A DNA stretch of 20,146 nt from the IMG/VR virus record IMGVR_UViG_3300037264_000905, positions 1-20,146 of that record, one strand, 5' to 3'. The notes beneath the pieces were generated by a model. It saw only the letters and a list, made by a program, of their open reading frames with translations. It was not told the DNA's origin and made no database searches. Every line of letters begins with the position of its first letter. The first letter of the stretch is position 1. The DNA is from a virus. The position numbers and the translations under genes were made by a program. Below are positions 281 to 19,123 of the stretch, piece by piece.

Positions 281-1207
281 ATGCCTGTTACAAAATCAGA
301 CGTTCCTAACCTGCTTCTAGCAGGGCTTAAGACTATCTTCTTCGAGGAATACGCTGCTGGCGCAGCCAATTCCGTGTTTGAGCAGATAGCTACAATCGTA
401 CCTTCAGAGAAGGATACAGAAACTTATGACTGGCTTGGTTCGCCGCCTGTCATGAGAGAATTCAAGGACGAGAGACTGCCAAAGGGTCTTTCAGAGTATG
501 ACTATACTCTGAAGAACAAGACCTGGGAGGCTTCCCTTCGTGTAGATCGTGCTGCAATCGAGGATGACCTTTATGGTCAGATTCGTGTGCGTGTGCGTGA
601 ACTTGCACAGGAGGCAAGACGCCACCAAGATCAGCTTGTAATTGAGCTTCTTCCCGGTGGAACTACTGCTGTCTGCTATGACGGTCAGTACTTCTTCGAT
701 GATGACCACTCTGAGGGAGACAGCGGCACTCAGGACAATAAGACCAATACTGCCCTTACTGCTGCTTATCTCAAGACTGGTATCACCACAATGATGAAGT
801 TTAAGGATGACAGAGGTAAGAACATGGGTATCATACCTAACACCCTTGTTGTTCCGCCTGATCTTCAGTGGACTGCTCTGGAGCTTCTTCAGTCTCCAAT
901 TCAAGTAACCGCTGGACTTCCTTCTGCCGCTTCTTCAAGTGGTTCGGATTACAGCAACGTGCTTCAGGGTAGACTCAAGCTCATCATCAGCCCGTATCTT
1001 ACTGATACGACCAACTGGTATTTGCTTGCTACCGACAGAATCGTAAAGCCTCTCATTCTGCAAAACAGAATGCCTGCGACTTTCGATGCTCTGGAGAACG
1101 GCAGCGAATCCGGGTTCATGAGAGACGCTTACCTGTACGGTGTTCGCGCTCGTTACAACGCCGGTTACGGCCTGTGGCAAGCCGCTTACTGCTCAACAGG
1201 TGAATAA
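281..1207 (+). CDS. Major capsid protein, Mu gpT-like
   Basis: This 308-residue protein is the shell subunit of the phage head. It matches the Mu gpT-type major head subunit family: an N-terminal segment with LLLAGLKTIFFEEY, a middle part with WEASLRVDRAAIEDD, and the characteristic phrase YDGQYFFDDDHSEGDSGTQ at residues 133-151. The length is that usual for the family. The ATG at 281 is preceded by a GGTGAGGTG Shine-Dalgarno region at a normal distance. Leucine is mostly CTT here, a stronger codon bias than in the genes at 1675-3941, as expected for a highly expressed protein. It follows the decoration-like gene and is followed by a strong terminator-like hairpin, which fits the need for many copies. 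Confidence 0.93.
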   Translation: MPVTKSDVPNLLLAGLKTIFFEEYAAGAANSVFEQIATIVPSEKDTETYDWLGSPPVMREFKDERLPKGLSEYDYTLKNKTWEASLRVDRAAIEDDLYGQIRVRVRELAQEARRHQDQLVIELLPGGTTAVCYDGQYFFDDDHSEGDSGTQDNKTNTALTAAYLKTGITTMMKFKDDRGKNMGIIPNTLVVPPDLQWTALELLQSPIQVTAGLPSAASSSGSDYSNVLQGRLKLIISPYLTDTTNWYLLATDRIVKPLILQNRMPATFDALENGSESGFMRDAYLYGVRARYNAGYGLWQAAYCSTGE

Positions 1208-1221: not shown

Positions 1222-1239
1222 CTTGGTTGAACTCAATTA

Positions 1240-1278
1240 CTGTGGGGCTGGTTTTTCCAGCCCCACAGTATTTCTTTT
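1240..1278 (+). terminator. Rho-independent terminator-like hairpin after the capsid gene
   Basis: CTGTGGGGCTGG (1240-1251) pairs perfectly with CCAGCCCCACAG (1257-1268), a 12-bp GC-rich stem with a TTTTT loop, followed by TATTTCTTTT. The T-tract is interrupted, so read-through is likely. That would let the capsid message be abundant while the downstream genes are still expressed from the same operon. Confidence 0.78.
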
Positions 1279-1292
1279 GAGGGAGGTTTGAA

Positions 1293-1658
1293 ATGAAGAG
1301 ATATAGTGTTCGTGCAAGATCGAGACGTTACGGGGGATTTCGTAGAAGCGGTCGCTGGTTTTCCAGTGCAGCAGCTACTATACTAACCGAAGCCGAAATG
1401 ACCCCTGAGATATTCGCAGAGGCAATGCTCATTGTGAGTGAGCTACCGGAAGAGCCAGAGGTTGAACCAGTTGAGCCAACAGTTGAGCCAGAGGCCGAGC
1501 CGAAAGTTGAAGAGGTAGTAATTCCTGAGACAGTCCAGGTATACGAGTATCCAAATGACCCCACTCCGGTTGTGGAGGTGGAACCTGCACTTGAAGTCAT
1601 GCCGGAAGTGGAAGAGAAACCGAAGAAAAGACAAGGTAGAGTATCAAAAGAGGAGTAG
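1293..1658 (+). CDS. Small head-region protein, HI1506-like N-terminus with acidic tail
   Basis: This is a 121-residue protein. Residues 1-45 (basic start, then YGGFRRSGRWFSS and ILTEAEMTPEIFAEAML) match the pattern of the small HI1506/gp35-like proteins found directly after the capsid gene in Mu-like phages: a GFRRAG-type motif followed by a short helical region. The second half is low-complexity and very acidic, with repeated VEPxxEP-type units (about residues 50-75), and the chain ends in a basic KKRQGRVSKEE tail. The function of this family is not known; a role in head assembly or joining is inferred from conserved position. The start is well supported by GAGGGAGG just upstream. The acidic repeat may have expanded by slippage. 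Confidence 0.7.
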   Translation: MKRYSVRARSRRYGGFRRSGRWFSSAAATILTEAEMTPEIFAEAMLIVSELPEEPEVEPVEPTVEPEAEPKVEEVVIPETVQVYEYPNDPTPVVEVEPALEVMPEVEEKPKKRQGRVSKEE

Positions 1659-1674
1659 AGGGGGTTAACTAACT

Positions 1675-2112
1675 ATGGCTGAGTTACAACTAGGATTAGA
1701 CCCTAGTGGAAATCCAAAAGAGATGGTTACTGATACAAACGGGTATCAGAAAGTAAGTTTGGCAACACTAATATCGGGTGAAGATACTGCGCAAAACCTG
1801 ATTAGGGTATCCCAAGTAGGTTATGTTCCTTATTCTGTTGCTGGAACGGCTACAGAAGTATCAACTGCTATTAGTGGTGCAGCTATCTCGGGAACTCTGG
1901 CCGGGTATTCTGTGACTGCTGTAGGTAAAGCAGACTCAACAGCCTCACTATGGGATGGTAACCCAGCAACAGGAACACAAATATGTGCTATCAACACACT
2001 AGCTATAACTGACGGAGTAAAGTGGGTTTACGCAAACTGTAGTACCTCTATGTACATAAAGTGCCGTGATGATAATACAACGCTACGCGTAACTCTGCTT
2101 TATATGGAATAG
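1675..2112 (+). CDS. Hypothetical virion-associated protein
   Basis: I do not recognise this 145-residue protein. The first 45 residues contain LDPSGNPKEMVTDTNGYQKVSLATLISGEDTAQNLIRV, a polar segment of the kind that starts fibre or appendage proteins. The remainder (about 50-145) is Ser/Thr/Ala/Gly-rich and has alternating hydrophobic residues, suggesting a single compact beta domain. There is no signal peptide or membrane segment. The ATG is preceded by AGAGGGGGTT at 8 bases. It is followed after 11 bases by the phosphoesterase gene, and both look richer in A/T-ending codons than the capsid gene. Together they separate two genes that are usually close neighbours in Mu-like heads. A surface decoration or fibre role is only a guess. 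Confidence 0.6.
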   Translation: MAELQLGLDPSGNPKEMVTDTNGYQKVSLATLISGEDTAQNLIRVSQVGYVPYSVAGTATEVSTAISGAAISGTLAGYSVTAVGKADSTASLWDGNPATGTQICAINTLAITDGVKWVYANCSTSMYIKCRDDNTTLRVTLLYME

Positions 2113-2123
2113 GGTGATATTTT

Positions 2124-3941
2124 ATGACAACACTTTTGGATGAGAGGTTTCCTAATGCTGCTGCACTAACGGCTTGGACACAATCTAGTGTATCAGGTAG
2201 TCTAGCTGAAGTAGTATCAGACGGCCCTAACCGATCAGGAAGTTCAACAGCACTAAGAGTGTATACAGCAAATGGAACCTACCATAGGCTGATAAGAAGT
2301 TTACCTATAAAACCTGCAACCGGGGATACTATGGATGTTTCATTTGACATCCGATATGAAGATGGTTCCCCGGACGATGTAGCCTTTCCGCCGTATGCTA
2401 ACATTGACCAAAAGCTTCAATACTTACGATTCTATGATGACACAGCAAATGTGTGGGTTTATGACAATTTTGGGATGGATAGGGCGGCTAGTGACTATGG
2501 GATAATTACCATTACTGGGAGTTCTTATGTCCATGCAGGTAAGGATACCCCACAAATAGGTAAGTGGGCGCATATTCATGTGCGTTACACTGGGATGTGG
2601 ACTGCTAACGGGGCTACACAGTTGTATAAAGACGGACGCCCATCTGCAGGCCATTTATACCCTGTAGGTTGGAAAACGTCCAATCATAGTGGGGCATTCA
2701 ATATATGGATTGGGCAAACAGGAACAGTATCGGTAGGTGCGCCTGTTGCCGTGCGTTACGCAAACCTGCTTGTACAAAGCTGGGCTGCTGAAGATGCTCC
2801 TGAATTACCTTATGCGCCGGATATTCAAAGTGTATTGGCGATTAAGACTGGAGTTTCCCAAGTTGAAATGTCTTGTTGGACTCCCGCTGCTACTGCTGTA
2901 ACTGTAGAGTATGGACTTTCATCAGTATATGGCTCATCTGCTGTAGTAGGCGATACTCATGACGGAAAACAACATGGGTGGTTAATGACAGTCCCAGCAT
3001 CCGGCACATTGTACTATAAGATCACAGCGACAAATCTGACAGACCCAACTGACTATACTGTTCGAGAAGGTACAGTCCCCCTAAAGGGTAGTACAGATAA
3101 CTCCACAGTGCTTATACTGAATGACTTACAGGATGATTCCAGATGTGCGGCCAGTGCTAGATTTGCACGTCAAAACACAATAGACACCTTACTGGCCCCT
3201 GGTGATATTTCAGATGTCAACTGGCACATGATAGAGGCCGATGGTGACGAGGTGTGGAGTGCCAATATTAACTTAAGTGTACTAGACTCGTTTACAACCA
3301 CACCTGTATATGGGCTGGGGCTTGGTAATCATGATGTGGATACACTGGACTCTGCTGCTATATTTATGGGTTTGACCCCGATGCCTAGTAACTATTACAG
3401 CTTTGACCAGGGGCGCGTACATTTTGTTGTTGCTGACTTACATAACGGAGTCACGATGGATGCAACCCAGTTAGCATACATATCAGCAAACCTTGCAGGG
3501 TCAACACAGCAATGGAAAGTAGTTGTAATACACCAGGCTTTTAACTGGAGTACAACTGAGAATCCTCCGATTGGTGAGATGTTCACAAATCAGGAAGAGT
3601 TCCATGCAGCTATGGTTGCTGGTGGTGTTAATGTGGTAGTTAATGGACATCACCACCAGATGAATATTCAGCAGGCAGACGGTGTTCATTATATAAGTAA
3701 CACGACTGCTGGGTCAGAGACAACGTGGAATACAACCTCAAACGATACTGGGGAAACATTTGCAAGAAATAAACTCGGTACATGGAAAAAACCTATAGCA
3801 ATGCGCGGTTATACAGTTATGAGTGTAACTGCAGATTATATAGACTGTACTATGTATACAAGTTTAGGTGTAGCGTTTTCAAAACGTAGAATTAGACCAA
3901 GACGGGGTTCTATTATAGCAACTGCCAGAGTATTGAAATAA
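2124..3941 (+). CDS. Three-domain protein: ConA-like, FN3/PAP-N-like and calcineurin-like metallophosphoesterase
   Basis: This 605-residue protein appears to have three parts. Residues about 1-225 look like a ConA-like jelly roll (LLDERFP start, strand-rich, ending RYANLLVQSW). Residues 230-322 resemble the FN3-type domain that precedes the catalytic part of purple acid phosphatases (VTVEYGLSS, GTLYYKITATN). Residues 328-600 carry metallophosphoesterase motifs: D334, GD at 360-361, GNHD at 401-404, H470 and GHHH at 508-511. In motif I the usual DxH is DLQ, so the histidine is glutamine, closer to the DxG form of purple acid phosphatases. The protein would hydrolyse a phosphoester; the substrate is unknown. 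There is no signal peptide, so virion attachment or intracellular action is more likely than Sec export. The ATG follows AGGGTGAT. It lies inside the head gene cluster, which is unusual. Confidence 0.85.
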   Translation: MTTLLDERFPNAAALTAWTQSSVSGSLAEVVSDGPNRSGSSTALRVYTANGTYHRLIRSLPIKPATGDTMDVSFDIRYEDGSPDDVAFPPYANIDQKLQYLRFYDDTANVWVYDNFGMDRAASDYGIITITGSSYVHAGKDTPQIGKWAHIHVRYTGMWTANGATQLYKDGRPSAGHLYPVGWKTSNHSGAFNIWIGQTGTVSVGAPVAVRYANLLVQSWAAEDAPELPYAPDIQSVLAIKTGVSQVEMSCWTPAATAVTVEYGLSSVYGSSAVVGDTHDGKQHGWLMTVPASGTLYYKITATNLTDPTDYTVREGTVPLKGSTDNSTVLILNDLQDDSRCAASARFARQNTIDTLLAPGDISDVNWHMIEADGDEVWSANINLSVLDSFTTTPVYGLGLGNHDVDTLDSAAIFMGLTPMPSNYYSFDQGRVHFVVADLHNGVTMDATQLAYISANLAGSTQQWKVVVIHQAFNWSTTENPPIGEMFTNQEEFHAAMVAGGVNVVVNGHHHQMNIQQADGVHYISNTTAGSETTWNTTSNDTGETFARNKLGTWKKPIAMRGYTVMSVTADYIDCTMYTSLGVAFSKRRIRPRRGSIIATARVLK

Positions 3942-3946
3942 GGGGG
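3941..3946 (+). promoter_or_regulatory. Ribosome binding site that favours a GTG start at 3955
   Basis: AGGGGG overlaps the stop of the upstream gene. It overlaps the in-frame GTG at 3946 and lies 8 bases before the in-frame GTG at 3955, so 3955 is the better start. Confidence 0.55.
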
Positions 3947-3954
3947 TGGTTGAT

Positions 3955-4428
3955 GTGGCCTACTGCACGTTAGCAGACTTACAGATGGAGCTTAGGGAAT
4001 TCGTCAAACTTGTACCGACAGGTAAAGAGGAAGCAGCATGGGCAACCCACATGATCAAACGGGCTGACTCCTATATCAACATGCGTCTTAACCGCAGGTA
4101 TGGGGACTACATACCATTTAGTCCTGTACCCGATGCAGTTTGGAGTATGTCAATCACACTGTCTATCTACTACTGCCTATTGTCAAACTATGCAGGACAG
4201 TCGATAGATAAGGTTGAGGCTCTGACTGCAACGTACTACAGACCCGTGGTAGAACAACTCAACTGGCTTTCAAAGGGTAACCTTGAATTGCCGGAGATCG
4301 ACGGAGACTCTGATACTATGCTTATCGACTCCACTACTGACGACTATCAGAAAGAGTTCCGTATCTCACGAGAAGATACGGAAGGAACTACGATTGTTGA
4401 CGGTAATATGGATGAAGGCGAGTGGTAA
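3955..4428 (+). CDS. Head completion/connector protein, DUF1320 (Mu gp36-like)
   Basis: This 157-residue protein begins AYCTLADLQMELREFVKLVP and continues with a helical segment IKRADSYINMRLNRRY, followed by WSMSITLSIYYCLLSN and a Y-x-x-x-x-x-QLNWLSKGNLELP segment. This is the pattern of DUF1320 proteins, the Mu gp36 type, which are thought to act at the head-tail connection. The GTG start at 3955 has an AGGGGGTGG SD at the proper distance; a GTG at 3946 is an alternative giving three more residues. The C-terminus is acidic. It normally lies near the capsid genes; here it is displaced by the two genes at 1675-3941. The family call is fairly secure, the precise role is inferred. Confidence 0.82.
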   Translation: MAYCTLADLQMELREFVKLVPTGKEEAAWATHMIKRADSYINMRLNRRYGDYIPFSPVPDAVWSMSITLSIYYCLLSNYAGQSIDKVEALTATYYRPVVEQLNWLSKGNLELPEIDGDSDTMLIDSTTDDYQKEFRISREDTEGTTIVDGNMDEGEW

Positions 4429-4432
4429 GACT

Positions 4433-4861
4433 ATGTTTTACTTCAGTGTAGTTGTCAACACGACTACTCCGATGCTCATGCGTTTGGACTCAGAACTTAT
4501 CGGTGGACTTCGGAAAGCTTGGGAGGCAATAGGACGGGAAGCCGTCCGTGCCATACACACCAACTTTCAGGTTGGGGGCAGACCATCATGGGTTCCACTC
4601 TCTGCTGAAAGGGTAAGGCGCAAAGGCCATAGCCGTCCACTTATTGACACTGGAAGGTTGATGAATTCAACCTACTATCGCTACATTGGTGGGGGACTAG
4701 AACTTTACAATGATACCCCTTATGGTGAGCTTCACCAGAATGGGGGAGATAACGCCCAGGGGAAGTACGTCCCAGCGCGTCCGTGGATGACACTACGACC
4801 TGAAGATGAGGTTAACTTTGTGCGTATCCTCGACTCTGTAATACAAGACTTGGGAAGGTAA
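4433..4861 (+). CDS. Virion morphogenesis / tail completion protein, gpG/gpS-like
   Basis: This 142-residue protein carries the pattern of the phage virion morphogenesis family that includes Mu gpG and P2 gpS: helical RKAWEAIGREAVRAIHTNF, then GGRPSWVPLSAERVRRKGHS, then PLIDTGRLMNSTYYR, then YGELHQNGG and a final ARPWMTL segment. These proteins act when heads and tails join. The reading frame is open further upstream, from 4283, but that part overlaps the preceding gene and lacks a good SD. The ATG at 4433 gives a normal family length and begins 4 bases after the upstream stop, which suggests translational coupling. It is followed after 2 bases by the next gene. Confidence 0.85.
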   Translation: MFYFSVVVNTTTPMLMRLDSELIGGLRKAWEAIGREAVRAIHTNFQVGGRPSWVPLSAERVRRKGHSRPLIDTGRLMNSTYYRYIGGGLELYNDTPYGELHQNGGDNAQGKYVPARPWMTLRPEDEVNFVRILDSVIQDLGR

Positions 4862-4863
4862 CA

Positions 4864-5334
4864 ATGCCTAATCTATCACAACAACTAGACATAATAGACA
4901 AGCTTGTAGCAATGATGCAAGCTGATACCACACTGAGCGATAACTTTGAAACATTCCTAGATCACATACCGGATGATCTGGCTGGAAATGCTTACCCATT
5001 GCTTGCGGTTGACTGGTCTGGTGATACACATAGACCCGTGGCAGTAGGTGGATACCGTATTGTTTGTAGTCTTTTCACTATTCTTATCGCTACGAATGAC
5101 TGGGAAGCTAAGGAAGCAAGAAGAAACCTTGTGGAGCTTTCAGGAATAGTAACAGACTTCCTATCCAAGCTAAGCAGCATGCAGCAAGATGGTTACTGGC
5201 AGCGTGGTAAGCTTGCCGAAGGTGGTCAGAATGTTCGTGTAGGTAGAAGTGATACCTCAGAAGGCACTACCGGGTTTGTTTACTCCGCACTGGTTCTTTG
5301 GGAAGCAGAATACAGAAAGGCAAAGGTAACTTAG
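4864..5334 (+). CDS. Putative tail terminator / head-tail joining protein
   Basis: This 156-residue protein has no motif I can name with certainty. It has a helical N-terminus (QQLDIIDKLVAMMQAD), a central stretch with alternating strands (YRIVCSLFTILIATND) and a long helix (EAKEARRNLVELSGIVTDFLSKL), ending in a strand (TGFVYSALVLWEAEYR). This order of secondary structure and the length of about 150 residues are typical of tail terminator (gpU-like) proteins. The position between the gpG-like gene and the tail tube gene, apart from the inserted glycosyltransferase, is where that gene is expected. The SD is GGGAAGG, overlapping the end of the upstream gene. The call is inferred from position and shape. 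Confidence 0.6.
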   Translation: MPNLSQQLDIIDKLVAMMQADTTLSDNFETFLDHIPDDLAGNAYPLLAVDWSGDTHRPVAVGGYRIVCSLFTILIATNDWEAKEARRNLVELSGIVTDFLSKLSSMQQDGYWQRGKLAEGGQNVRVGRSDTSEGTTGFVYSALVLWEAEYRKAKVT

Positions 5335-5335
5335 A

Positions 5336-6343
5336 ATGAAGTTGATGATAGCTGTAAGTGTAGCAGACTGCAAAGCTTACTGCATAGACGAGTTTTTGAA
5401 ATGTCTCGACACAGAGACAGCGGCTCTCGACTTCGTTGATGAGTGGCATATCATCATATACGGGGATAGACTAGCGCGGGAGGGTTATACGTTCCCACGG
5501 CTATCGGAGTGGGTAAAGGCCCATGAAGATAAGGTAACATATATCCCCGGTGTCGAGCTTGAAAACCTTACAGATGACAATATCTATAACTCCAAGGCAG
5601 TAGCCCAGGTTCGGGAGAACACGCGGCAGGTTGCCCTATGCTCTGACTGGTGGGATACACTTCTCTTTTGGGATTGTGACGTATTCCCACTCCCCGGCGC
5701 GTTAGCTAAACTTGCTGCTGCAATGGAGGAGTCAGACGGAGATATAGTAGCCGGACTGGTTGCTGACTGGTCAAGTGAGATGCCCTCTGTAGCCCTTTTT
5801 GATGAGAATACCGATGAGCTAAAGCTCGTATGGCCTTTAACAAAGCTGGAAGCCAATAAGGACTACCAAGTAGGGGTTACTCACCTGGCATTCACTCTTA
5901 TAAAGAGGCCGGTGCTTGAAGCTATACCTTTTGTGTATGACGAGCGGGTAGTGGCTTGGGGTGACGACGGTTACCTTTGTAGAGAAGCATACAAACAGAA
6001 GTTCTCTATCATTACCACATCCAAGGTGGAAACCTTACATGTGCATGAATCCTTTAAGGGACAGAAATGCGAAGTCAAAGGGGACGGTGTTGAAGTTAGC
6101 GTTTATAAGGTTCCTACCTCCAGTGTTGAATTCGCGGGTAAGGAAGAAGCTCTAGCTTACGTAAGGGATGACTCCGGTGGACACTTTCCAGCCCCTATAG
6201 ACTGGACTTTTCACAGAGGCAAGCCAGTTCCTACGCGCCTTCTTGGAGATATACGTGTCAACCTTCTGCTTGAAGGGCCAGCTTTTCGGAAGATAACGGT
6301 AACTAGACATGACATGGAAGTTGCCGCTGATATTATGGATTAG
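5336..6343 (+). CDS. GT-A fold glycosyltransferase
   Basis: This 335-residue protein looks like a nucleotide-sugar-dependent glycosyltransferase of the GT-A fold. Residues 1-45 have an initial strand MKLMIAVSV and a following WHIIIYGDR strand. The DxD motif, which binds the metal and the sugar nucleotide, is D113-C114-D115 in LLFWDCDVFPLPGA. A later GDDGYLCREAYK (209-220) corresponds to the acceptor-side ED-type motif, and H235/H237 in LHVHES could be the late metal ligand. There is no membrane segment, so it would act in the cytoplasm. It begins one base after the stop of the upstream gene and sits directly before the tail tube gene. It may modify a virion protein or a host glycan; the sequence does not say which. 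Confidence 0.82.
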   Translation: MKLMIAVSVADCKAYCIDEFLKCLDTETAALDFVDEWHIIIYGDRLAREGYTFPRLSEWVKAHEDKVTYIPGVELENLTDDNIYNSKAVAQVRENTRQVALCSDWWDTLLFWDCDVFPLPGALAKLAAAMEESDGDIVAGLVADWSSEMPSVALFDENTDELKLVWPLTKLEANKDYQVGVTHLAFTLIKRPVLEAIPFVYDERVVAWGDDGYLCREAYKQKFSIITTSKVETLHVHESFKGQKCEVKGDGVEVSVYKVPTSSVEFAGKEEALAYVRDDSGGHFPAPIDWTFHRGKPVPTRLLGDIRVNLLLEGPAFRKITVTRHDMEVAADIMD

Positions 6344-6352
6344 CTTCCATAA
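6333..6352 (+). repeat. Short inverted repeat over the glycosyltransferase stop codon
   Basis: TTATGGA (6333-6339) and TCCATAA (6346-6352) form a perfect 7-bp stem; the TAG stop (6341-6343) lies in the 6-base loop. No T-tract follows, so termination is not suggested. Confidence 0.45.
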
Positions 6353-6393
6353 GATAAAACAAGAAACTCAATACTTGAGGAGGTGACACGAAG

Positions 6394-7467
6394 ATGACAG
6401 ATATTTATGGGTTCAATGACTGGATGGCAGTCGAGGTAGAGGATACCGAAGGGACTGCTGTGAAGGGTACATTGTACCTTGACCTCATGAGTTCCAACTT
6501 CGGAGAAAAGGTGGATACCTTATTCCGTAGGTCAATGAGACAGGATGGAAGACTGGTCAAGAGGATTATTCCTCGTAACGCTAGTATAGACGGAGATGTG
6601 AACTTTGAGATTCCTGCTTCAGGAGCCTCTAAGATCATGTACGCGGCTTTCGGTGCGCCCACCTCAAGTGGCACAGCGAGTCCGTACACACACGTTTTCC
6701 TCAACCCGGTTAGCGGAACTGGTCACAAGTCTCTTACCGTTGTTCAGGCTATCGGCGGGTATCACAGAATATCAGCCGGAGCAGTTATAGGCAAAATGTC
6801 TATCAAAGCAGCAATTGACAGTCCACTTACTATGACAGTAACACTGGATGCTATCGACACAGCCTATCAGGATACTGCTAGTATAGCAACTACATGGCTT
6901 TCAAGCGCAGCTTACGATGGAGGCGGAAACTACGAAGACTTCCACGTTGGTATGTATCTTGATGGCACAGCAACAGACGCGATAGATGACGTTACTATCG
7001 ACATTGACTCCGGGCTGAAGCCAAAGAGAACTTTGGTTGGTTCCCGTAGACCGGTTGGACACACCTATGGTGTTTCCGATACCGAGATCAAGGCTACCAT
7101 GTACTTCTCAAGTGATAGAGAGCGTTGGGAACTCCTTGGTCAACCTACTCAACCGGCGTATCCGTACAAGGTTGCGGCTACAGCACAACCTCAAAGAACT
7201 ATGAAGCTTGAAGCTATCAATGGAATCTACAGGTTTACTGTTGACCTTCCTGATATAAGGATAGTTGAGTCTGGAGACGTTGAGTACCTCGAAGACGTTA
7301 TCAAAGTCCCTGTAACTTTCAGGGCTATGTATGACGCAACAACCGCGAGTGACGTTAAGATTACAGTAATCAACGGAACTCAGGCAATCGCCGCAGGCAC
7401 AGCCGTTTCAGGTGCAAACCTACCTACCGACTTCGGTATTTCTACAGCGTCCTCACGGAAGATATAA
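6394..7467 (+). CDS. Tail tube (major tail) protein
   Basis: This 357-residue protein is the repeated subunit of the tail tube. It shows the features of the phage tail tube family found in siphoviruses of Gram-positive hosts: an N-terminal segment ending in RRSMRQDGRLVKRIIPRNAS, a strand with DGDVNFEIPASGASKIMYAAFGAP, then SPYTHVF, and a second half with a symmetric beta domain (KPKRTLVGSRRPVGHTYGVSDTEIKATMYF). It is longer than minimal tube proteins of about 150-200 residues, in keeping with a duplicated tube fold. The C-terminal 30 residues form a small Ala/Gly/Thr-rich extension. The start is fixed by a near-perfect GAGGAGGTGA SD. No tail sheath gene follows, so the tail is non-contractile. 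Confidence 0.85.
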   Translation: MTDIYGFNDWMAVEVEDTEGTAVKGTLYLDLMSSNFGEKVDTLFRRSMRQDGRLVKRIIPRNASIDGDVNFEIPASGASKIMYAAFGAPTSSGTASPYTHVFLNPVSGTGHKSLTVVQAIGGYHRISAGAVIGKMSIKAAIDSPLTMTVTLDAIDTAYQDTASIATTWLSSAAYDGGGNYEDFHVGMYLDGTATDAIDDVTIDIDSGLKPKRTLVGSRRPVGHTYGVSDTEIKATMYFSSDRERWELLGQPTQPAYPYKVAATAQPQRTMKLEAINGIYRFTVDLPDIRIVESGDVEYLEDVIKVPVTFRAMYDATTASDVKITVINGTQAIAAGTAVSGANLPTDFGISTASSRKI

Positions 7468-7473
7468 TCTTCC
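7457..7473 (+). repeat. Short inverted repeat over the tail tube stop codon
   Basis: GGAAGAT (7457-7463) and ATCTTCC (7467-7473) form a perfect 7-bp stem with an ATA loop. The TAA stop (7465-7467) spans the loop and the first base of the right arm. Confidence 0.5.
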
Positions 7474-7494
7474 TTTGCCCTACCACGGGGCTTT

Positions 7495-7539
7495 TGCTAA
7501 GGCGGGGAGTCCTCCTTTCCGCCTTAGCAGTTCCATTTT
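7495..7539 (+). terminator. Terminator-like hairpin after the tail tube gene
   Basis: TGCTAAGGCGG (7495-7505) pairs perfectly with CCGCCTTAGCA (7519-7529) around a 13-base loop, followed by TTCCATTTT. A smaller GCCC/GGGC hairpin with TTTT lies just before it (7477-7495). The T-tract is imperfect, so partial termination or mRNA protection is the likely effect in this gap between the tube gene and the chaperone gene. Confidence 0.6.
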
Positions 7540-7567
7540 CACAAATCACACGAAGGAGAAATTCAAG

Positions 7568-8008
7568 ATGCCTAGAGCAACAGCAGAAGACACAGCTAGT
7601 CATGAAGTTTTGGAAGAAACAGGTGAGATAAAAAAGCTTACTAGAGAAGAGCTTGTTGAAAAGCTCAGACGAAATAACGCGACACAGAATGTCGAGCCGG
7701 TAACCCTTGAGGGTATGCTTGGGATTGGTAAGCCTGTTGGCTTTGGGAATGTAACCCTTTACATCCCTGCGCTTACGGTAAGACAATTCACAAAGGCGTT
7801 GACCCTCATTAACGAAATATCGTCAGCAGGAGATGAGGATACAGGAAAGACCATGAACCAAATGATGGAAGTCATTCACATGGCAGTATCTCGTAACTAC
7901 CCTGATATTACGTTAGAGGAGCTTCTTGACCTGATTGACCTATCGAACCTCCAAGACGTGTTCCAGCAAGTTCTACAGTCATCTAACATAACAGTAAAAA
8001 ACGAGTAG
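7568..8008 (+). CDS. Tail assembly chaperone, short (gpG-type) product
   Basis: This 146-residue protein lies between the tail tube and the tape measure, the standard place for the tail assembly chaperone that coats the tape measure during tail building. It has a charged N-terminus (IKKLTREELVEKLRRNN), a small strand region (PVGFGNVTLYIPALTVRQFTKAL), and a helical end (ITLEELLDLIDLSNLQDVFQQVLQSS). The open frame extends upstream to 7412, but that overlaps the tube gene and a hairpin; the ATG at 7568 follows GAAGGAGAAA. The last codons read GTA AAA AAC GAG TAG and form a -1 slippery site, so some ribosomes should continue into the extension at 8002-8214. The lambda G/GT pair is the classic parallel. 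Confidence 0.82.
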   Translation: MPRATAEDTASHEVLEETGEIKKLTREELVEKLRRNNATQNVEPVTLEGMLGIGKPVGFGNVTLYIPALTVRQFTKALTLINEISSAGDEDTGKTMNQMMEVIHMAVSRNYPDITLEELLDLIDLSNLQDVFQQVLQSSNITVKNE

Positions 8009-8060
8009 ACGGAGAAGGTAAAGCTGTAGACGAACCAGACTGGGGCTATATTTTCTCCGT
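7996..8060 (+). promoter_or_regulatory. Programmed -1 ribosomal frameshift signal
   Basis: The heptamer A AAA AAC (7996-8002) is in the correct phase with the chaperone frame (GTA AAA AAC). The zero-frame stop TAG follows two codons later at 8006-8008. Six bases after the heptamer, ACGGAGAA (8009-8016) pairs perfectly with TTCTCCGT (8053-8060), an 8-bp stem that can be extended by G-U pairs. Spacing and phase fit a classical stimulatory structure, though the large loop (36 bases) suggests an internal fold. Confidence 0.8.
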
Positions 8061-8214
8061 TATGGCAGCGATCTATAAGTTTGATGCAGACACGGTAGGC
8101 GACCTTGATCTAAATCAGCTTAATGGTTACATGTCTAATATCGGACGGGTTCTTCCTTTGATTAACCCCTTCGCGGGGCAACAAGGAAAGGCTTCTGAGG
8201 CTCAGTCGGATTAA
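8002..8214 (+). CDS. Frameshift extension of the tail assembly chaperone (gpT-type part)
   Basis: This frame is open from 7987 to the TAA at 8212-8214. A -1 shift at 7996-8002 joins it to the upstream gene and adds 70 residues, beginning RVDGEGKAVDEPDWGYIFSVMAAIYKFDADTVGDLDLNQL and ending GQQGKASEAQSD, for a fused product of 215 residues. The DWGYIFSVMAAIY segment followed by a helix-loop-helix ending IGRVLP is the usual pattern of the second half of frameshifted tail chaperones. An ATG at 8062 could make a shorter product but has no SD. The stop codon lies in the loop of a strong terminator. The fusion product is inferred from a complete set of frameshift signals. Confidence 0.78.
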   Translation, partial: RVDGEGKAVDEPDWGYIFSVMAAIYKFDADTVGDLDLNQLNGYMSNIGRVLPLINPFAGQQGKASEAQSD

Positions 8215-8246
8215 GTGTAAAACTCGTCCGACTGGGCCTTTTTTTT
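8198..8246 (+). terminator. Strong rho-independent terminator overlapping the chaperone end
   Basis: AGGCTCAGTCGGA (8198-8210) pairs with TCCGACTGGGCCT (8227-8239), 13 pairs with one G-U, followed by a run of eight T (8239-8246). The loop holds the stop codon of the frameshift product. This is the best terminator in the left half of the window and precedes the tape measure gene, which is needed in few copies. Confidence 0.85.
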
Positions 8247-8258
8247 GTATTTCATTAC

Positions 8259-8265
8259 GAGGGAG
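8259..8265 (+). promoter_or_regulatory. Ribosome binding site that sets the tape measure TTG start
   Basis: GAGGGAG lies 9 bases before TTG 8275. The in-frame TTG at 8245 is inside the terminator T-tract and TTG 8266 touches the SD, so 8275 is the best start. Confidence 0.65.
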
Positions 8266-8274
8266 TTGAGTAAG

Positions 8275-11200
8275 TTGTCACAGTTTACCATTACTATTAC
8301 TGGTAACTCTACACAAGCTGTACAGGCAGTACAACAACTACAGGCAGCATTAGGCAATCTTCAAGTTAACATGAACCAAGCAACGGCTACTGCTGGCAAA
8401 AGTACCGGGCTTATGTCTCGATACTTTAGGAACTTCGGGCTTGTCGTTGGTGGTATGGCAATATACAAAGCCGCACATGCTATCAAAGAGTTCATAAAGC
8501 AATCAGTATTGATGGCTGGTAATGTTCAGACTATGAATGCTACTATGCCGGTTATCGCCAAGAACATGGGATATACCGGCAATGCAGCTAACCACATGGT
8601 AAAGAGCATACACAACATGAACATAAGCTGGACAGCAAGTTACCAAGCTGTACAGCAGTGGATGACTATGGGTTTGCCACTCAAAGATATGTTCGGGGTT
8701 GTTCGTGCAGCGCAGGAAAGAGCTATCCTGGCAAATAGGGACTCGACTACTGCTATGGCTGACTTCTTTGAAGCCATATCTACGGGCTACACACGCCAGA
8801 TGAATATGTATATGCTTGTAAAGAACTCCCCACAGATTTACAAGGACTATGCACGTTCACTAGGTAAGACTTCTGCCGCTCTCTCGGAGTACGAGCAACG
8901 CATGGCTATCGTGAACTATATTACCACGGAAGCCGTAAAGACTGCTGGTATATATCCGGCAGCTTTGGAGACATGGCAGAAGAAACTCCACTCCATGATT
9001 CGTGTCTTGCAAGACTTTCAGGTAGCTGGGGGTAATGCATTCAACCTTTCAATGAGGGTTATCGTAGATCAACTTTATGATAGCTTCACCCGCTGGAGCA
9101 AGGAGCTTGAAAAAGCAGCGGCAGATGGTAGGATGGCTCTATGGGCTATCCAACTAAAGAATGCTACCGTTGAAGCAATCAGACTCATTGAGAAGCTAGG
9201 CGTAGCTGTACTTACTATGGGTAGGTGGGCGATAGAGGCAAACAGATGGTGGGATAACTTTTCCCACACCATAGACAACTCCTCTGTGTCAGTTCACAAC
9301 TTTATGATTAAGACCCCTACGATAGTCGGTCTTGTGGGTAATCTACAGGCTCTTATTACCTACGTACGTGAAGTAGGGGCAGCTTTTACCAAAGCTGGAG
9401 AAGAAGCAGAAGGTATAGTTTACCCGATAGCGCGAGTTCTAGCTAATATTGTGATTACAATTCTCAATATGCAGTCTGCGGTAATCAGCGCATTCACATT
9501 GCCCTACAAAGTCGTGTATAACTTTGTGGTAAACTGGGCCTCAAACATAGTGAAAACTATCTTTGGTGGATGGAGGTCTAGTGCTAAGGGTGGGGACGTA
9601 TTTGGACAGTCCACAGTTGGCATGCTTGTCAGGGTACACAAGAGTATCGCTACATGGTGTCATAATGTCTATGTGGCTATTGCTAATGCCTGGAACAAGT
9701 CTACAAACCCGGTTATAATGTTTGCAAGAACAGTTATCAACTGGATAGCGAAGGTAATCCAGTCAATAGACAACTTCATACTGAAGATACTATCTATACC
9801 GGATAGGCTGGGTATCGCCATAGGTAAAGCTAATAGCAAACTAGCTAACTCCTGGGGCAGTAACCAAATGCCTTACTCCTATGCCAAGGCTACCGGACTT
9901 GAATACCAAAAAGGTGACAAGATCGGTGCATTGAGGGTTACCTCTGCTCAGTCTAATGCGGCTGTGCATGCCGGAACACATAAACTACCTGGAGTTATAG
10001 ACTTCGGTGAAAGCTCAGTTAAGGCGGCTGGATTCAAGTCACTTGACGAGGCTGCACAGTATCTAGCGGCCCGTGGTTTTGTTGCTGCAGTGAGGCCCAC
10101 AAAGGGTAAGTTCTCTTCAGGCCCACATATCCATGCTGCTGACCCAACCCTTAACCCGGCTGAGGCAGCGCGTCTTGCCGCTCAGGGTAGCAGTAAAACA
10201 CATGTGTATGGTGGAAAAGAGAATAAGCCTGACTCTGGTTGGAACTATGCTGTAAAGCAATGGCAACAACAAATCAGAACCTTTGCCCCCTACACTCCTC
10301 CAGATGAACAGTTAGAATATGGGCCTGGAAAAGCCAGTATGGGGGCTATGAATGCCGCCAAACTTAAAGCTGATGCAGAAAAGAAAGCTAAAGCTGATCA
10401 GAAGAAAGTCGAAACAGATTGGCGTAAGTTTGAGAAAACCCTGTCCGCCGATAAGGTTAAGCAAATAGCTGACGAACGTAAGAGGGCTATTAGCGAAGCT
10501 TATCTCAAGTACTATAATCTTGAGAAGCTTGCTCATGGGGATGCCAAAAAAGAAGCAGCGGCAACGCAATGGCTTGTTGGCGAGAAGAAAAAGATCAATG
10601 CCAAGTATGACGTTGAACAGGCGGCTGCAAACAAGAAAGCACACGAGCAGAGACTTGATTCTATCGAAGAAGCCCGACTCAATGGGGATAAGCTGAAGGA
10701 AGAGCTACTACAGGTAGATCAAAAGTACGCTGAGATGCTCAAAAAGGATAAGCTCACCGTTAACGACAAAAAACGGATAAACGAGATGTATCTGAAAGAG
10801 CGTCAGAATACTATCAGGAAGTACAATCTAAACGAGGAAGCTACGGAAGCAGAACATCAGGCCAAGCTACTAACCATAGCTGCTGATACCCTGGAGAAGA
10901 AAGGGGCGGCTGAGGTTGCTACTCTTGAAGCTACCCGCAAGGATAGACTCGCGGAAACAAATGATGCGAAAGAGAAAGTGCGTATCAACGCTGAGATAGA
11001 CGCTCAGATAACAGCAGTTCATGCGGAATATGCAGAGAAGAGAAGGCTGCTTGAACTTGAGGTTTCTAACCAAATACTCGGTATTATCGGTAATGAAACC
11101 CAGGTCAAAAAGAATAAGGCCAAAGAGCAGGCTGACGAGTGGATAAAGCAGGGAATGAATCGCCTGCAAGCAGAGAAATGGCTTCAACTTGAGCTTGCCA

Positions 11201-12945
11201 AGATCGACAAGGAAGACATTGTTGACAAGTTCCAGAAGGATGCCGGGGCTGCTAAGCGTAGGGTAGACCTAACTAATACCAATGCTTACGAAGAAGTCAA
11301 GATTCTGAAGGCTAAACTCGAAGCTGTTAAGGGTACTCTCGGAGAAACCTCTCCAGAGTACCAAGGTCTTAGTGACACGGTTGAAGAGATGGATATGAAT
11401 CTCCTATCTTCACAGATTGATAACTTCAAAAAGCAGTATGATGCTGGAAAGTTGAGTACAGACCAGTACAAAGCACTGGTTACTGAGCAGATAACAGTCC
11501 ACAAGGATGGATTGTCTAAGCAACTCATGGACTTGAATGCGTACTATGACGTAGTAGCAGCCAAGGATGTTAACTATAGGGATGAGCAGGCTACTTTCCT
11601 TGCCGAAGGTGCAAAGCTTTGGGGAACCTCCACGGAGCATCAACAGATAGTTGTTGCTGGATTCCTATCCAAGCTTATCCAAGACCATAAGTTGACCGGG
11701 GCGCAGATAAAAGCAGAGATAGCAACCTGGGCTAACTACTTCGGTGTCCCTTATGACACCATGCTTAAAATCGTAGCTGAAAAACTCGACAAGCTTGTTG
11801 TAGTACACCAAACTTTCGGTCAGTATATAAAAGCCAACTGGGAAAAGATAGCTGGAGATATGTCTACAGCTATAGCGAACTTTGTTGGCGACTCTATTAC
11901 TCACTTTAAGGGGTTCAAAAACTTCTTTACCGGCTTGATTAATACCATCAAGGAAACTGTGATTAGCGTTTTCAAGGACTACCTGGCTAACGTTATCAAA
12001 ACCTGGCTTCTCAAAGTAATGGCTGGTACCAAAGGCATAATGGGAACCATGAGTATCGGAGGAGGAGGAGGCGGTGGTATTGGTGGAGTACTAGGTGGAC
12101 TAGTAGGTGGGGGAAACTCAGGAGGAGGCATAGGCGGACTCTTAGGTGGACTCTTCGGTAACAAAAGTGGAGGAAGCTCAGGAGGAGGGGGAGGTTCACT
12201 CTTAGGTGGACTCTTCGGAGCCGGAAGCGGACTTTTCGGCAGCAGCACATTCGGTACACCACCTATAGTAGGCGGCGGTACTAGTGTCAACAATATCATA
12301 ATGCCGGGGGCTAGTACACAAACAGGTGGTGTTGGCGGTGCGCTTCAGCTTGCCAGTGTGTTCAAATCTGGTGGAGGCGTAGCTAAAAAAGTGCTTAGTT
12401 TCCTAAAGGGTGGTGCTATGCCCTGGATTCTAGGTGCAACCTTGCTAGGCGGAGGTAACCCGATAAAAGGTATTACTACTGTAGTTTCTACAGTAGTAAA
12501 GACTGTCAGCAAAGTAGTAAGTGGTATAGGGAAGGTTATTGGTGGTATCTTTAAGGGTATCGGTAAAATCTTCGGGTTCCACGACCCATTTGCTGATAAG
12601 GGGATTGCCTCAGCAGGTCAAATGCTGGGCCTACAGTTGAAAAACTCAAAACCCGGTTCGGCAGGAGGCATGCTCAATGCTTCGTTTGGCAAGGCAGGAC
12701 TACCTCCACCGGCTATGATGGGACAGGCTTGGGGTATTGACTTCGGGAGGCTCTTTACTACAGGAGTAAACCAGGGAATTGCTACGGCAAAATCTCCGGG
12801 AGCCGCGTCTTCAAGAGGCGGGGGCGGAGATCACCCCATAACGATACACCAGACCAACTATATCAACAACCCGACAGACTGGGAGCGGAATGCAAAAGAC
12901 GCTTTCAAGACTGCCATGAGAACATGGGAAGGGGGCGCGTACTAG
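8275..12945 (+). CDS. Tape measure protein with embedded M15-like peptidase motif
   Basis: This 1,556-residue protein (from TTG 8275) sets tail length and is ejected with DNA. At roughly 0.15 nm per residue the tail would be about 230 nm. Order: N-terminal ITITGNSTQAVQAVQQLQAAL coil (3-30); hydrophobic stretches near 45-65 and 384-431; a region with AVHAGTHKLPGVIDF and, later, GPHIHA, giving H569, D576, H618 and H620, the ligand pattern of M15-type peptidases; long charged coiled coils (about 686-990); a glycine-rich block (about 1260-1325); and a hydrophobic C-terminal part ending in FKGIGKIFGFHDPFADKG, typical of tape measures. The peptidase motif suggests local cell-wall cleavage during DNA entry. 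A TTG start and a terminator upstream should keep expression low. The gene is joined to the next one by TAGATG. Confidence 0.9.
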   Translation: MSQFTITITGNSTQAVQAVQQLQAALGNLQVNMNQATATAGKSTGLMSRYFRNFGLVVGGMAIYKAAHAIKEFIKQSVLMAGNVQTMNATMPVIAKNMGYTGNAANHMVKSIHNMNISWTASYQAVQQWMTMGLPLKDMFGVVRAAQERAILANRDSTTAMADFFEAISTGYTRQMNMYMLVKNSPQIYKDYARSLGKTSAALSEYEQRMAIVNYITTEAVKTAGIYPAALETWQKKLHSMIRVLQDFQVAGGNAFNLSMRVIVDQLYDSFTRWSKELEKAAADGRMALWAIQLKNATVEAIRLIEKLGVAVLTMGRWAIEANRWWDNFSHTIDNSSVSVHNFMIKTPTIVGLVGNLQALITYVREVGAAFTKAGEEAEGIVYPIARVLANIVITILNMQSAVISAFTLPYKVVYNFVVNWASNIVKTIFGGWRSSAKGGDVFGQSTVGMLVRVHKSIATWCHNVYVAIANAWNKSTNPVIMFARTVINWIAKVIQSIDNFILKILSIPDRLGIAIGKANSKLANSWGSNQMPYSYAKATGLEYQKGDKIGALRVTSAQSNAAVHAGTHKLPGVIDFGESSVKAAGFKSLDEAAQYLAARGFVAAVRPTKGKFSSGPHIHAADPTLNPAEAARLAAQGSSKTHVYGGKENKPDSGWNYAVKQWQQQIRTFAPYTPPDEQLEYGPGKASMGAMNAAKLKADAEKKAKADQKKVETDWRKFEKTLSADKVKQIADERKRAISEAYLKYYNLEKLAHGDAKKEAAATQWLVGEKKKINAKYDVEQAAANKKAHEQRLDSIEEARLNGDKLKEELLQVDQKYAEMLKKDKLTVNDKKRINEMYLKERQNTIRKYNLNEEATEAEHQAKLLTIAADTLEKKGAAEVATLEATRKDRLAETNDAKEKVRINAEIDAQITAVHAEYAEKRRLLELEVSNQILGIIGNETQVKKNKAKEQADEWIKQGMNRLQAEKWLQLELAKIDKEDIVDKFQKDAGAAKRRVDLTNTNAYEEVKILKAKLEAVKGTLGETSPEYQGLSDTVEEMDMNLLSSQIDNFKKQYDAGKLSTDQYKALVTEQITVHKDGLSKQLMDLNAYYDVVAAKDVNYRDEQATFLAEGAKLWGTSTEHQQIVVAGFLSKLIQDHKLTGAQIKAEIATWANYFGVPYDTMLKIVAEKLDKLVVVHQTFGQYIKANWEKIAGDMSTAIANFVGDSITHFKGFKNFFTGLINTIKETVISVFKDYLANVIKTWLLKVMAGTKGIMGTMSIGGGGGGGIGGVLGGLVGGGNSGGGIGGLLGGLFGNKSGGSSGGGGGSLLGGLFGAGSGLFGSSTFGTPPIVGGGTSVNNIIMPGASTQTGGVGGALQLASVFKSGGGVAKKVLSFLKGGAMPWILGATLLGGGNPIKGITTVVSTVVKTVSKVVSGIGKVIGGIFKGIGKIFGFHDPFADKGIASAGQMLGLQLKNSKPGSAGGMLNASFGKAGLPPPAMMGQAWGIDFGRLFTTGVNQGIATAKSPGAASSRGGGGDHPITIHQTNYINNPTDWERNAKDAFKTAMRTWEGGAY
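12138..12218 (+). repeat. Direct repeats in the glycine-rich part of the tape measure
   Basis: A 21-base sequence at 12138-12158 is repeated exactly at 12198-12218, 60 bases apart and in the same frame; the preceding CTCAGGAGGAGG (12119-12130 and 12178-12189) is also repeated. Each copy encodes a LLGGLFG unit within the glycine-rich block, so the unit appears to have been duplicated. Confidence 0.8.
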
Positions 12946-14652: not shown

Positions 14653-16053
14653 ATGGCTCTACTATTCCAAGATCAGTTTACAAGACCAAATCAGCACGGT
14701 TGGGGTGGTGGTTGGCTTACCACCACCCCAACATCCAACTTCTTCTTCCCCAAGTATAGTATTGTTAGTAACCAGGCTGCATTTAGTATACCTTCTGGAC
14801 ATGTCGGGTTAATGAATCTGTATACTTACCCCTCAGCTTCACCTAGTATAACAAGCGGAGAAGTAACATTTAGATTTAATGTTACTGAATGTAGTCAAAA
14901 TCTCAGTCTTGCATCCTCATTTGGCCCTATGTTTAGGTATAGTTCTCCTAGTGGTGACTTCTACCACATGCAGATCAATCCTGCTGGAACGGTGGCACAG
15001 AGTGCTGTTGGAACATTGACTATATACAGAGTCCTTGACGGGGTTCATTCTCCACTAAGCTCATTACCATTTCTTATGTTGAAAAACGCATGGTACACTG
15101 TAAGGGCCATTTGTAAGCAGTCTACAGCAAGTACAGTTGACTTAAAGATTAAGGTATGGAAAGACGGCGAAGACGAACCCGCAGCATATACACTAAGTAT
15201 TGGGGATACTCTAGCAGCAATGCAGAACTTTTCTGGTAAGGCAGGGTTTGCCATATATGGCAATGATGGCTATGACTATAGCCAGTACTTAGATAACTTT
15301 ACATTGTATGATGTAGCCGGAGACAGCCCCTCACAACCCCCATCGGCTCAACAAACGTTCACATGGGGAACAACCGCGACCGACAAGTTTGCTACTACGT
15401 GTACACTCACTACTGAACTTGCTGCTAAGAGTGATGGTACTTCGGATGACATAAAAGCAGCTATCAATACATGGGTTGCCGATACTGACACAAAGTTTCT
15501 CTACAAGTTTGCAGAGGGAAGTGGTCAACAGGTAGTGGACTCTGCAACAACTCCTATCACTGGGACTCTCGGTGATAGCATATCTGTAGAGTCAGCAGAC
15601 CCGGCTTGGACATCTGGAGATGACTGCATGGGAGGTTCGGCCCTAGTATTTAGTGCGGCTGACACAGACAGGGTAGTTGTTCCCCACAATGCTAAACAAG
15701 TTTCTGCAGTCCTTACTATCGAGGCTTGGGTTAATGGTGTAACTTACGTAGGTACAAGCCGAACCATAGTAAACAAGTGCAATGATGACCAATCGTTACG
15801 AAATTACTATCTCCGATGGTACTCTACCGGTGCAGCCTGGAGATTTTCGTATCATAATACCAGTGATACCTTGGTTGCCTTAGACTATACTACTACACCA
15901 ACAACCGGCGTATGGTATCACATTGCCGTTACCAGAACTTCTGGTAACCAGTGTACTATGTATCTGGATGGTGTGCAGGTAGCACAGCAGACCCTTTCTG
16001 CGCCTAGAACTACAACGACCGGAAAGCTTGCAATTGGTACAACTATAGGATAG
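14653..16053 (+). CDS. Tail-associated protein with two ConA/LamG-like modules
   Basis: This 466-residue protein probably has two jelly-roll modules. Residues 1-222 start LLFQDQFTRPN and end YLDNFTLYDV, the frame of a ConA-like domain. Residues about 280-466 resemble a LamG-type domain: FLYKFAEGSGQQVVDSA, SALVFSAADTDRVVVP, LTIEAWVN, WYHIAVTRTSGNQCTMYLDG and GKLAIGT. The LamG domain stops right after this last strand, without the usual final FxGxIDEVRIY segment, so it is slightly truncated. A linker (223-280) has helical character. The gene likely encodes an adhesin or side fibre that binds sugars. The SD before its ATG is weak, and it starts 2 bases after the upstream stop, so coupling is likely. 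A 14-bp hairpin lies in its first codons. Confidence 0.75.
   Translation: MALLFQDQFTRPNQHGWGGGWLTTTPTSNFFFPKYSIVSNQAAFSIPSGHVGLMNLYTYPSASPSITSGEVTFRFNVTECSQNLSLASSFGPMFRYSSPSGDFYHMQINPAGTVAQSAVGTLTIYRVLDGVHSPLSSLPFLMLKNAWYTVRAICKQSTASTVDLKIKVWKDGEDEPAAYTLSIGDTLAAMQNFSGKAGFAIYGNDGYDYSQYLDNFTLYDVAGDSPSQPPSAQQTFTWGTTATDKFATTCTLTTELAAKSDGTSDDIKAAINTWVADTDTKFLYKFAEGSGQQVVDSATTPITGTLGDSISVESADPAWTSGDDCMGGSALVFSAADTDRVVVPHNAKQVSAVLTIEAWVNGVTYVGTSRTIVNKCNDDQSLRNYYLRWYSTGAAWRFSYHNTSDTLVALDYTTTPTTGVWYHIAVTRTSGNQCTMYLDGVQVAQQTLSAPRTTTTGKLAIGTTIG
14699..14732 (+). repeat. Perfect 14-bp inverted repeat inside the LamG gene start
   Basis: GTTGGGGTGGTGGT (14699-14712) and ACCACCACCCCAAC (14719-14732) form a perfect 14-bp GC-rich stem with a 6-base loop, in codons 16-27 of the gene at 14653. 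No T-tract follows, so it is not an ordinary terminator; it encodes GWGGGWLTTTP. Confidence 0.85.
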
Positions 16054-19000: not shown

Positions 19001-19123
19001 ACGAAGGAAAACTGGATTCATACCTTGGAGATCGGTGACCCGATACCTACTCACTGGGATTATATCGCAAAAGCTTGGGCAAATACCTCAGCCCAAATGA
19101 ACATAATCCACCAGATCATTTAG
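16067..19123 (+). CDS. Tail hub (Tal/Gp37-like) protein with N-terminal LamG and inserted CBM-like module
   Basis: This 1,018-residue protein is the probable tail-tip hub and adhesin. Residues about 30-240 are LamG-like (DGSKYFDGTGSIAF, FTVETYVN, WSHVVAWLDT, GIGYARLWSREL). Residues 280-410 form a beta-sandwich of the kind that precedes binding parts in surface proteins (SGxx-type WTPTLTVPENRYVQWEARF...TPTLQSVNL). Residues 420-670 match the ReqiPepy6 Gp37-like tail family (WRVEICNAAGVKVAELTDI...FNWNRKGGCTDFTITL, WFSGYLL, LTFKGIGF), continuing at 866-1018. Between them, residues 675-865 begin NYLRNPSFAE and end YHFYVDGI, a CBM-like insertion. The ATG at 16067 has an AGGGGG SD at 9 bases; ATG 16091 lacks one. 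It is the last gene before a terminator. The N-terminal extension is unusual because hub domains normally come first. Confidence 0.8.
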   Translation: MFFQLRGAMSIDRKPLAGSPLNIRDPLVDRLVSCVVLNDTLKAYDSVTGVMGSVSGGVGFYNPMGDGSKYFDGTGSIAFGGGGLDTRYNATSHPFTVETYVNPASHAGSPRIVCQQSSGTTVWYLDIEPGPILRFYVNFTGGTNIDAKAETTANVPAIGVWSHVVAWLDTSKVPHIAVNGREVTYSSQITGDSAVAGASSVPYCIGSRNGVNFFTGGIGYARLWSRELKESERLSLYTDPYRMFRIPADNSLLVEAPATGSVNVLAVTGSATGNTTLPTVSITSTQGYSLSFDGTIDAIAMSNTVRTDILARSNKYKDLGTITSAVCDGGSNTPNWIPNTTTSEPTGTSIEWASRGSNTIFLATDVSPSWGSWTPTLTVPENRYVQWEARFNTTSKLTPTLQSVNLQGVGVAPQAQGKPYIWYPPARKWPDTLRLPEWRVEICNAAGVKVAELTDIESAEFNWNRKGGCTDFTITLSENSRGLEHMNSDYWLIFYVKDPADGTWGKWFSGYLLHGSLYSKKPQALTFKGIGFVGEMERKQLPALGVGRKSSGDTYIAIGFFGTQLYNKWLGADRSNVASFVSYWSPSVKADEMHFDNANLVEIMNTATEGINPIYAYGLGGSWGVDEERILFMQPVPTDTLHVFDHDDPRIEDLALEWDTTDKANTVIVQGGEANFGNYLRNPSFAETEKTSSGSTDTFDHLVGWVRNPSTGGDVTYFDTYTETSTPESPIKFLHDNNVVYFSGAATTNYLESKPVKVIGSGSGTYSYYFSTGLWAAGRFITGNGLGAKLKVQLYHSTTETGTFSALTASHSLEWVAGEHMLTKKVIFEDLYTGSGSQELWWKVRITCDRASYHFYVDGITMTTGYEKTHRGSPDDAMSYLMSTQYQAAFTNGTPTDKETRWETITNQTIKTYADAKQFADSYFAWHDREIIGGSLTLRSYPHRIAPWQGGITITNVPRPDGTRITVSFPVESSKLSITKENWIHTLEIGDPIPTHWDYIAKAWANTSAQMNIIHQII

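Follow-up and report, generated by a model that had tools for sequence, protein, structure and literature searches.

What is a phosphatase gene doing among the head genes of a phage, and where would its product act? The question is raised by P0001, a protein encoded in the window, which is the whole IMG/VR record and comprises a linear viral fragment of 20,146 bases. A sequence-only reading had described P0001 as a phosphoesterase fused to sugar-binding-like modules and had proposed that the virion carries it.

The late gene block around the phosphatase

The late genes in the window belong to a siphophage whose head is of the Mu type. The features that frame the phosphatase gene are the following:

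281..1207, plus strand: Mu-like gpT major capsid protein (MCP; PF10124, E 4e-70; phrog_371)
1238..1270, plus strand: hairpin of 14 pairs resembling an intrinsic terminator, after the MCP gene (hairpin scan)
1293..1658, plus strand: gp35-like small head protein (position; arginine-rich N-terminal pattern G-F-R-R-x-G)
1675..2112, plus strand: orphan of 145 aa, possibly a head decoration or (head-)fibre protein, judged by its position only
2124..3941, plus strand: FN3-metallophosphoesterase protein P0001, 605 aa (one intact ORF from ATG 2124 to the stop at 3941)
3946..4428, plus strand: gp36 head-tail adaptor (PF07030, E 2e-7)
7494..7530, plus strand: terminator-like hairpin of 16 pairs, after the tail tube gene (hairpin scan)

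The order MCP, gp35-like gene and gp36 recurs in relatives. The counterparts in phage Mu are gp34 for the MCP and gp36 for the adaptor; Mu gp35 may be related to the connector (PMC11915804). The product of 1293-1658 gave no significant family match in Pfam or PHROG, and neither a family (Pfam, PHROG) nor a homologue was found for the orphan at 1675-2112. For gp36, the GTG at 3955, behind GGGGGTGG, is the more likely start. P0001 had been placed between two conserved Mu-like head genes; the gpT-type MCP and gp36 do flank it, but two small genes (1293-1658 and 1675-2112) separate the MCP gene from the phosphatase gene.

The hairpin scan of the window yielded seven sites against 6.3 expected in shuffles, and weight was therefore given only to the two long stems, which bracket a gene block (1293-7464) holding the phosphatase. 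Gene order and these terminator-like hairpins place the phosphatase gene in a structural-gene operon. The window further encodes a Phage_tail_S neck protein, the tail tube (Phage_tube_2), a Dit-like protein, tail proteins with laminin-G domains and an ORF of tape-measure size.

Several of these neighbours have features of their own. A 335-aa protein encoded between the tail-completion and tail-tube genes (5336-6343) gave a sub-threshold match to family-2 glycosyltransferases (PF00535, E 0.003). In the tape-measure-sized protein (8245-12945), about residues 545-640 contain H-x-G...D...SGPHIH and resemble an embedded M15-type peptidase, with no Pfam match. The tail-end proteins at 14653-16053 and 16067-19123 each carry a laminin-G_3 (ConA-like) domain (E 2e-15 and 3e-15), and an ORF cut by the record end (19848-20146) starts with two weak helix-turn-helix-like segments.

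The phosphatase gene is preceded by a Shine-Dalgarno-like site, GGGTGA, and is tightly packed, with 11 bp to the preceding gene and 4 bp to the listed gp36 start (13 bp to the alternative start). An in-frame TGA two codons 5' of ATG 2124 leaves no room for a signal peptide and thus excludes a leader. The first 60 residues also lack a hydrophobic segment (maximum 15-residue hydropathy 0.52), in agreement with the initial statement that a signal peptide is absent.

The phosphoesterase domain and its relatives

The modules and metal-ligand motifs of P0001 are listed below:

2124..2789, plus strand: orphan N-terminal module, residues 1-222 (homologue searches negative; pLDDT mostly <50 in the full model)
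2826..3083, plus strand: FN3-like / purple-acid-phosphatase N-terminal-type beta module, residues 235-320 (AlphaFold2 pLDDT mostly 68-88, seven strands)
3099..3917, plus strand: metallophosphoesterase (MPE) domain, residues 326-598 (PF00149, AlphaFold2 and PDB matches)
3123..3131, plus strand: motif I, D334-L-Q336, of the D-x-Q type (sequence, alignment)
3201..3215, plus strand: motif II, G360-D-I-S-D364, GDxxD and not the GDxxY of purple acid phosphatases (PAPs) (sequence, alignment)
3324..3335, plus strand: motif III, G401-N-H-D404 (sequence, alignment)
3531..3533, plus strand: motif IV, H470 (invariant in the alignment)
3645..3656, plus strand: motif V, G508-H-H-H511 (sequence, alignment)

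The Pfam profile Metallophos (PF00149) matched residues 328-512 with 23.3 bits against a cut-off of 21.5 (E 1e-4). All five MPE ligand motifs are present, the third position of motif I being Q; GD 360-361, GNHD 401-404, H470 and GHHH 508-511 lie exactly where the sequence-only reading had put them. Across an alignment of 65-67 relatives, little or no variation was seen at D334, G360, D361, G401, N402, H403, H470, H509 and H511.

An AlphaFold2 model of P0001 was built with 52 relatives and reached a pLDDT of mostly 70-95 over residues about 235-598. Structure prediction against MPE and PAP folds had been proposed as a check; residues 223-598 of the model matched the plant PAP 1xzw_B (Z 33.3, rmsd 3.2, 350 aligned residues). 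This match covers the FN3-like and MPE modules both, and the model thus contains the plant-type arrangement of an FN3-like domain on an MPE domain. Further structural matches were mammalian PAP (Z 26), PhoD (25.5), GAP50 (25), ADPRibase-Mn (21) and GpdQ (20), and more than 100 PDB chains matched at E<=0.001, with MPE-fold enzymes heading the list. Since the alignment drives the model, it supports family membership and is not an independent proof, whereas the Pfam match and the motif set do not depend on it. P0001 almost certainly has the four-layer MPE fold, and its description as a calcineurin-like phosphoesterase was upheld by profile, motifs and fold. The N-terminal PAP profile PF16656 was not matched by the sequence in the Pfam search.

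Of the module fusion proposed initially, the FN3-like and MPE parts stood. The label ConA-like for residues 1-222 goes back to their general look and gained no support: these residues gave no Pfam or PHROG match and no homologue in phage records (tblastn) or in the viral contigs searched, and the N-terminal 230 residues folded alone reached a pLDDT of 29. A BLASTP comparison with the window's own laminin-G protein (E 0.017 as a single comparison, 33% over 84 gapped columns) was too weak to be used, and a PF05408 match on residues 96-164 (E 0.1) was ascribed to chance.

The glutamine in motif I had been pointed out as a replacement of the usual histidine. The replacement is real, but it is not odd. 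In this column the relatives have G (34), Q (16), H (8) or R (7), and the choice is coupled to motif II: all 16 D-x-Q relatives have GDxxD/E, and 33 of the 34 D-x-G relatives have GDxxY with the PAP tyrosine. P0001, with Q336 together with D364, is of the D-x-Q/GDxxD type. A docking model of human ADPRibase-Mn has metal 1 bound by the Gln of D[V/I]Q, which is conserved in that family; with His in its place, activity was about tenfold lower (PMC4334965). Gln at this position is also found in other D-x-Q subfamilies. Given its frequency among the relatives and its role as metal 1 ligand in ADPRibase-Mn, Q336 is by our analysis an ordinary variant of a catalytically competent type and not an anomaly. 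The tyrosine that serves PAPs as charge-transfer metal ligand is replaced by D364, and P0001 is therefore PAP-like and not a PAP proper.

Relatives were collected from bacterial genomes with a scan that combined patterns and tblastn; it gave 79 loci. The best relative in the fetched set had an E of about 5e-14 (phmmer), and Bacillota FN3-MPE proteins matched P0001 with E 3e-16 in a small set and 7e-14 per genome. The order FN3-like module, then MPE domain is standard among secreted bacterial phosphatases of many phyla (PF16656 + PF00149; e.g. Selenomonas P0002 and Bacillota L133-L135) and is shared by P0001; the Selenomonadales and Bacillota members also share D-x-Q with GDxxD/E. These enzymes mostly have a leader (a crude test found a hydrophobic leader-like segment in 41 of 73 relatives of P0001) and are encoded on bacterial chromosomes or plasmids, whereas P0001 is leaderless, has the additional orphan module and is encoded in the head operon of a phage. 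Plant PAPs (1xzw, 1kbp, 6gja) have the same two-domain fold as residues 223-598 (Z about 29-33) but differ by D-x-G and GDxxY, at about 15% identity. Zebrafish ADPRibase-Mn (2nxf; Z 21) has the MPE fold and the motif I Gln in common with P0001 (D[V/I]Q and D-L-Q), but no FN3 module.

P0001 forms a very long branch in the trees (1.9-2.5 changes per site). Its placement beside D-x-H phosphatases (support 95/78) was set aside because of the branch of 2.5 changes per site.

Phage phosphatases and the MCP-gp36 slot

No homologue of whole P0001 was found in 50,697 phage records (tblastn), nor in viral contigs by peptide patterns. Two matches labelled as phage (H43, H47) and the viral contig L046 were not counted as phage homologues because their loci resemble bacterial chromosomal ones, with a SusCD-type locus or a dehydrogenase and other housekeeping genes. 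Chromosomal bacterial genes of these kinds (a SusCD locus; housekeeping enzymes) occur in L046, MT835678 and MT839322, all labelled viral.

In a structure search of viral proteins, gp352 of Bacillus phage G ranked first. It combines Mtd_N (25.1 bits, cut-off 26.3) and a sub-threshold lamin-tail domain with Pur_ac_phosph_N and Metallophos. Mtd_N is of the tail tropism protein type. The phosphatase of the crAss-like phage cr60_1, read with TAG as Q, consists of lamin-tail and PAP-N domains (both sub-threshold) and Metallophos; its gene is flanked by that of an internalin-like receptor-binding protein and, one gene removed, by that of a minor structural protein. The 148-kb contig L131 has the same arrangement. 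Like P0001, these three phage-encoded proteins join a PAP-N-like module to a D-x-Q MPE domain behind extra N-terminal modules, with no leader seen. They differ in their N-termini, with a sub-threshold lamin-tail domain in all three and Mtd_N in phage G, and form their own clade apart from P0001 in the tree. The cr60_1 and L131 genes, unlike that of P0001, adjoin large receptor-binding-type genes. The fibre-type phosphatases L129 6562-9942 (crAss-like), L131 3430-7464 and L126 7429-10029 (phage G) have D-Q-Q and GNND in common, the latter an unusual active-site variant with the motif III His changed to Asn.

The viral contig L045 carries an FN3-MPE gene between portal-like and MCP-like genes (neighbours named by reading), but its product differs from P0001: it has a leader, its motifs are D-x-G/GDxxY, and PKD and lyase-like parts are added. 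This 827-aa FN3-MPE-PKD protein (7455-9935) has an alginate-lyase-like end (sub-threshold PF05426), and a sulfatase-like gene (251-1543) is nearby. PAP-like phosphatases thus apparently entered phage structural clusters more than once, by independent captures. No paper describing them as virion enzymes was found in the open-licence literature.

The relatives of the MCP are at most 44% identical to that of the window, and none of 38 MCP-related viral loci encodes P0001. As the gene was not found in this slot of any related phage, it may be a recent passenger. Many of the loci have only a gp35-like gene between MCP and gp36, and several have extra genes there. In L026, an ORF of 795 aa shares the slot with a gene whose 280-aa product matched the fibre family PF23140 (E 7e-52). 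In L010, a laminin-G protein (E 7e-30) follows the MCP, and in L013 and L014 a 387-aa glycosyltransferase-like gene, identified by reading, lies right after it; gp36 itself was not recognised by the search in these last three loci. The varied extra genes indicate that accessory genes, including some for display modules, can be accommodated in the slot. The 795-aa ORF of L026 (7158-9545) consists of many degenerate repeats of roughly S-x-T-P-x-I-x-x-x-x-x-R-x-L-x-A-x-I and has no Pfam match.

Location and role of the phosphatase

The best reading of P0001 is a leaderless phosphatase of extracellular type that is expressed late, carried on the virion and active outside the cell; we assign it a probability of about 0.5. 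The phage would have taken up a two-metal FN3-MPE (PAP-like) phosphoesterase of the kind that bacteria normally secrete, without its signal peptide and placed behind the orphan N-terminal module. Made in the late morphogenesis operon alongside head proteins, it would become an accessory virion component, most likely on the head or neck surface, with the N-terminal module as anchor or binder on the particle. There it may hydrolyse extracellular phosphate esters, such as phosphorylated surface polymers or nucleotides.

Expression from the late morphogenesis operon makes P0001 a likely component of the virion. Virion carriage gains support from the fibre or laminin-G genes in the MCP-gp36 slot of related phages, and from phage G, crAss-like phages and L131, whose PAP-like phosphatases have N-termini of fibre type or are encoded next to receptor-binding genes. 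P0001 is probably an active enzyme. A surface polymer or an extracellular nucleotide as substrate is a tentative proposal, and the teichoic acid or polysaccharide named at the outset are guesses. Against the virion reading, operon position alone is no proof of incorporation, the glycosyltransferase-like product of 5336-6343, which comes from the same block, may stay in the cytosol, and residues 1-222 have no recognisable fold or virion-anchor signature. Moreover, those nearest known phage phosphatases that have a clear gene context belong to tail clusters and not to head clusters. The more specific proposal is unlikely, namely that this siphophage displays an active phosphatase on its Mu-like capsid, recruited leaderless and head-anchored by a new module, which processes phosphorylated polymers or scavenges phosphate before infection.

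The main rival, which we regard as rather unlikely, is a late cytosolic phosphoesterase that is not part of the virion and acts within the cell on nucleotides, signalling molecules or DNA, in counter-defence or metabolism. The lack of a signal peptide suits such an enzyme, and the tree, weakly, groups the P0001 domain with D-x-H phosphatases and not with the other phage fibre phosphatases. Phage MPEs with counter-defence roles exist, but the example, the mycobacteriophage phosphodiesterase Gp48 with its intracellular role, is described as early-expressed (PMC12287305), whereas the P0001 gene lies in a late head operon. Moreover, the FN3 plus PAP-like architecture is typical of extracytoplasmic enzymes, as the leader-like segments of the relatives illustrate, and an intracellular enzyme would not need the 222-aa extra module.

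It is improbable that P0001 is a virion protein that kept the MPE fold in an inactive form for attachment, comparable to the PAP-fold protein GAP50 with its structural match of Z 25. The very long branch, the replaced motif I His and the GNND of the phage G and crAss relatives in place of GNHD would agree with this, but no metal-ligand motif of P0001 is lost, its motif III still has the His, Gln as in Q336 is known to work as a ligand, and a protein that loses its function would usually show decay in several motifs. Least probable is that the gene is a moron, a passenger of host origin which was caught where insertions are tolerated and contributes nothing to the phage life cycle. The variable slot and the lack of homologues in any related phage would allow this, but against it stand the intact 605-codon frame, the GGGTGA site and tight gene packing, as well as the extreme divergence from bacterial relatives with every motif intact, an indication of long-term selection.

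Depolymerases and lysins on virions are familiar; to our knowledge, virion-borne phosphatases have hardly been described. The occurrence of PAP-like phosphatases in separate phage structural clusters, namely in the phage encoding P0001, in phage G, in crAss-like phages and in L045, suggests that taking phosphate off an extracellular target helps some phages; a single recombinant protein would allow a direct test.
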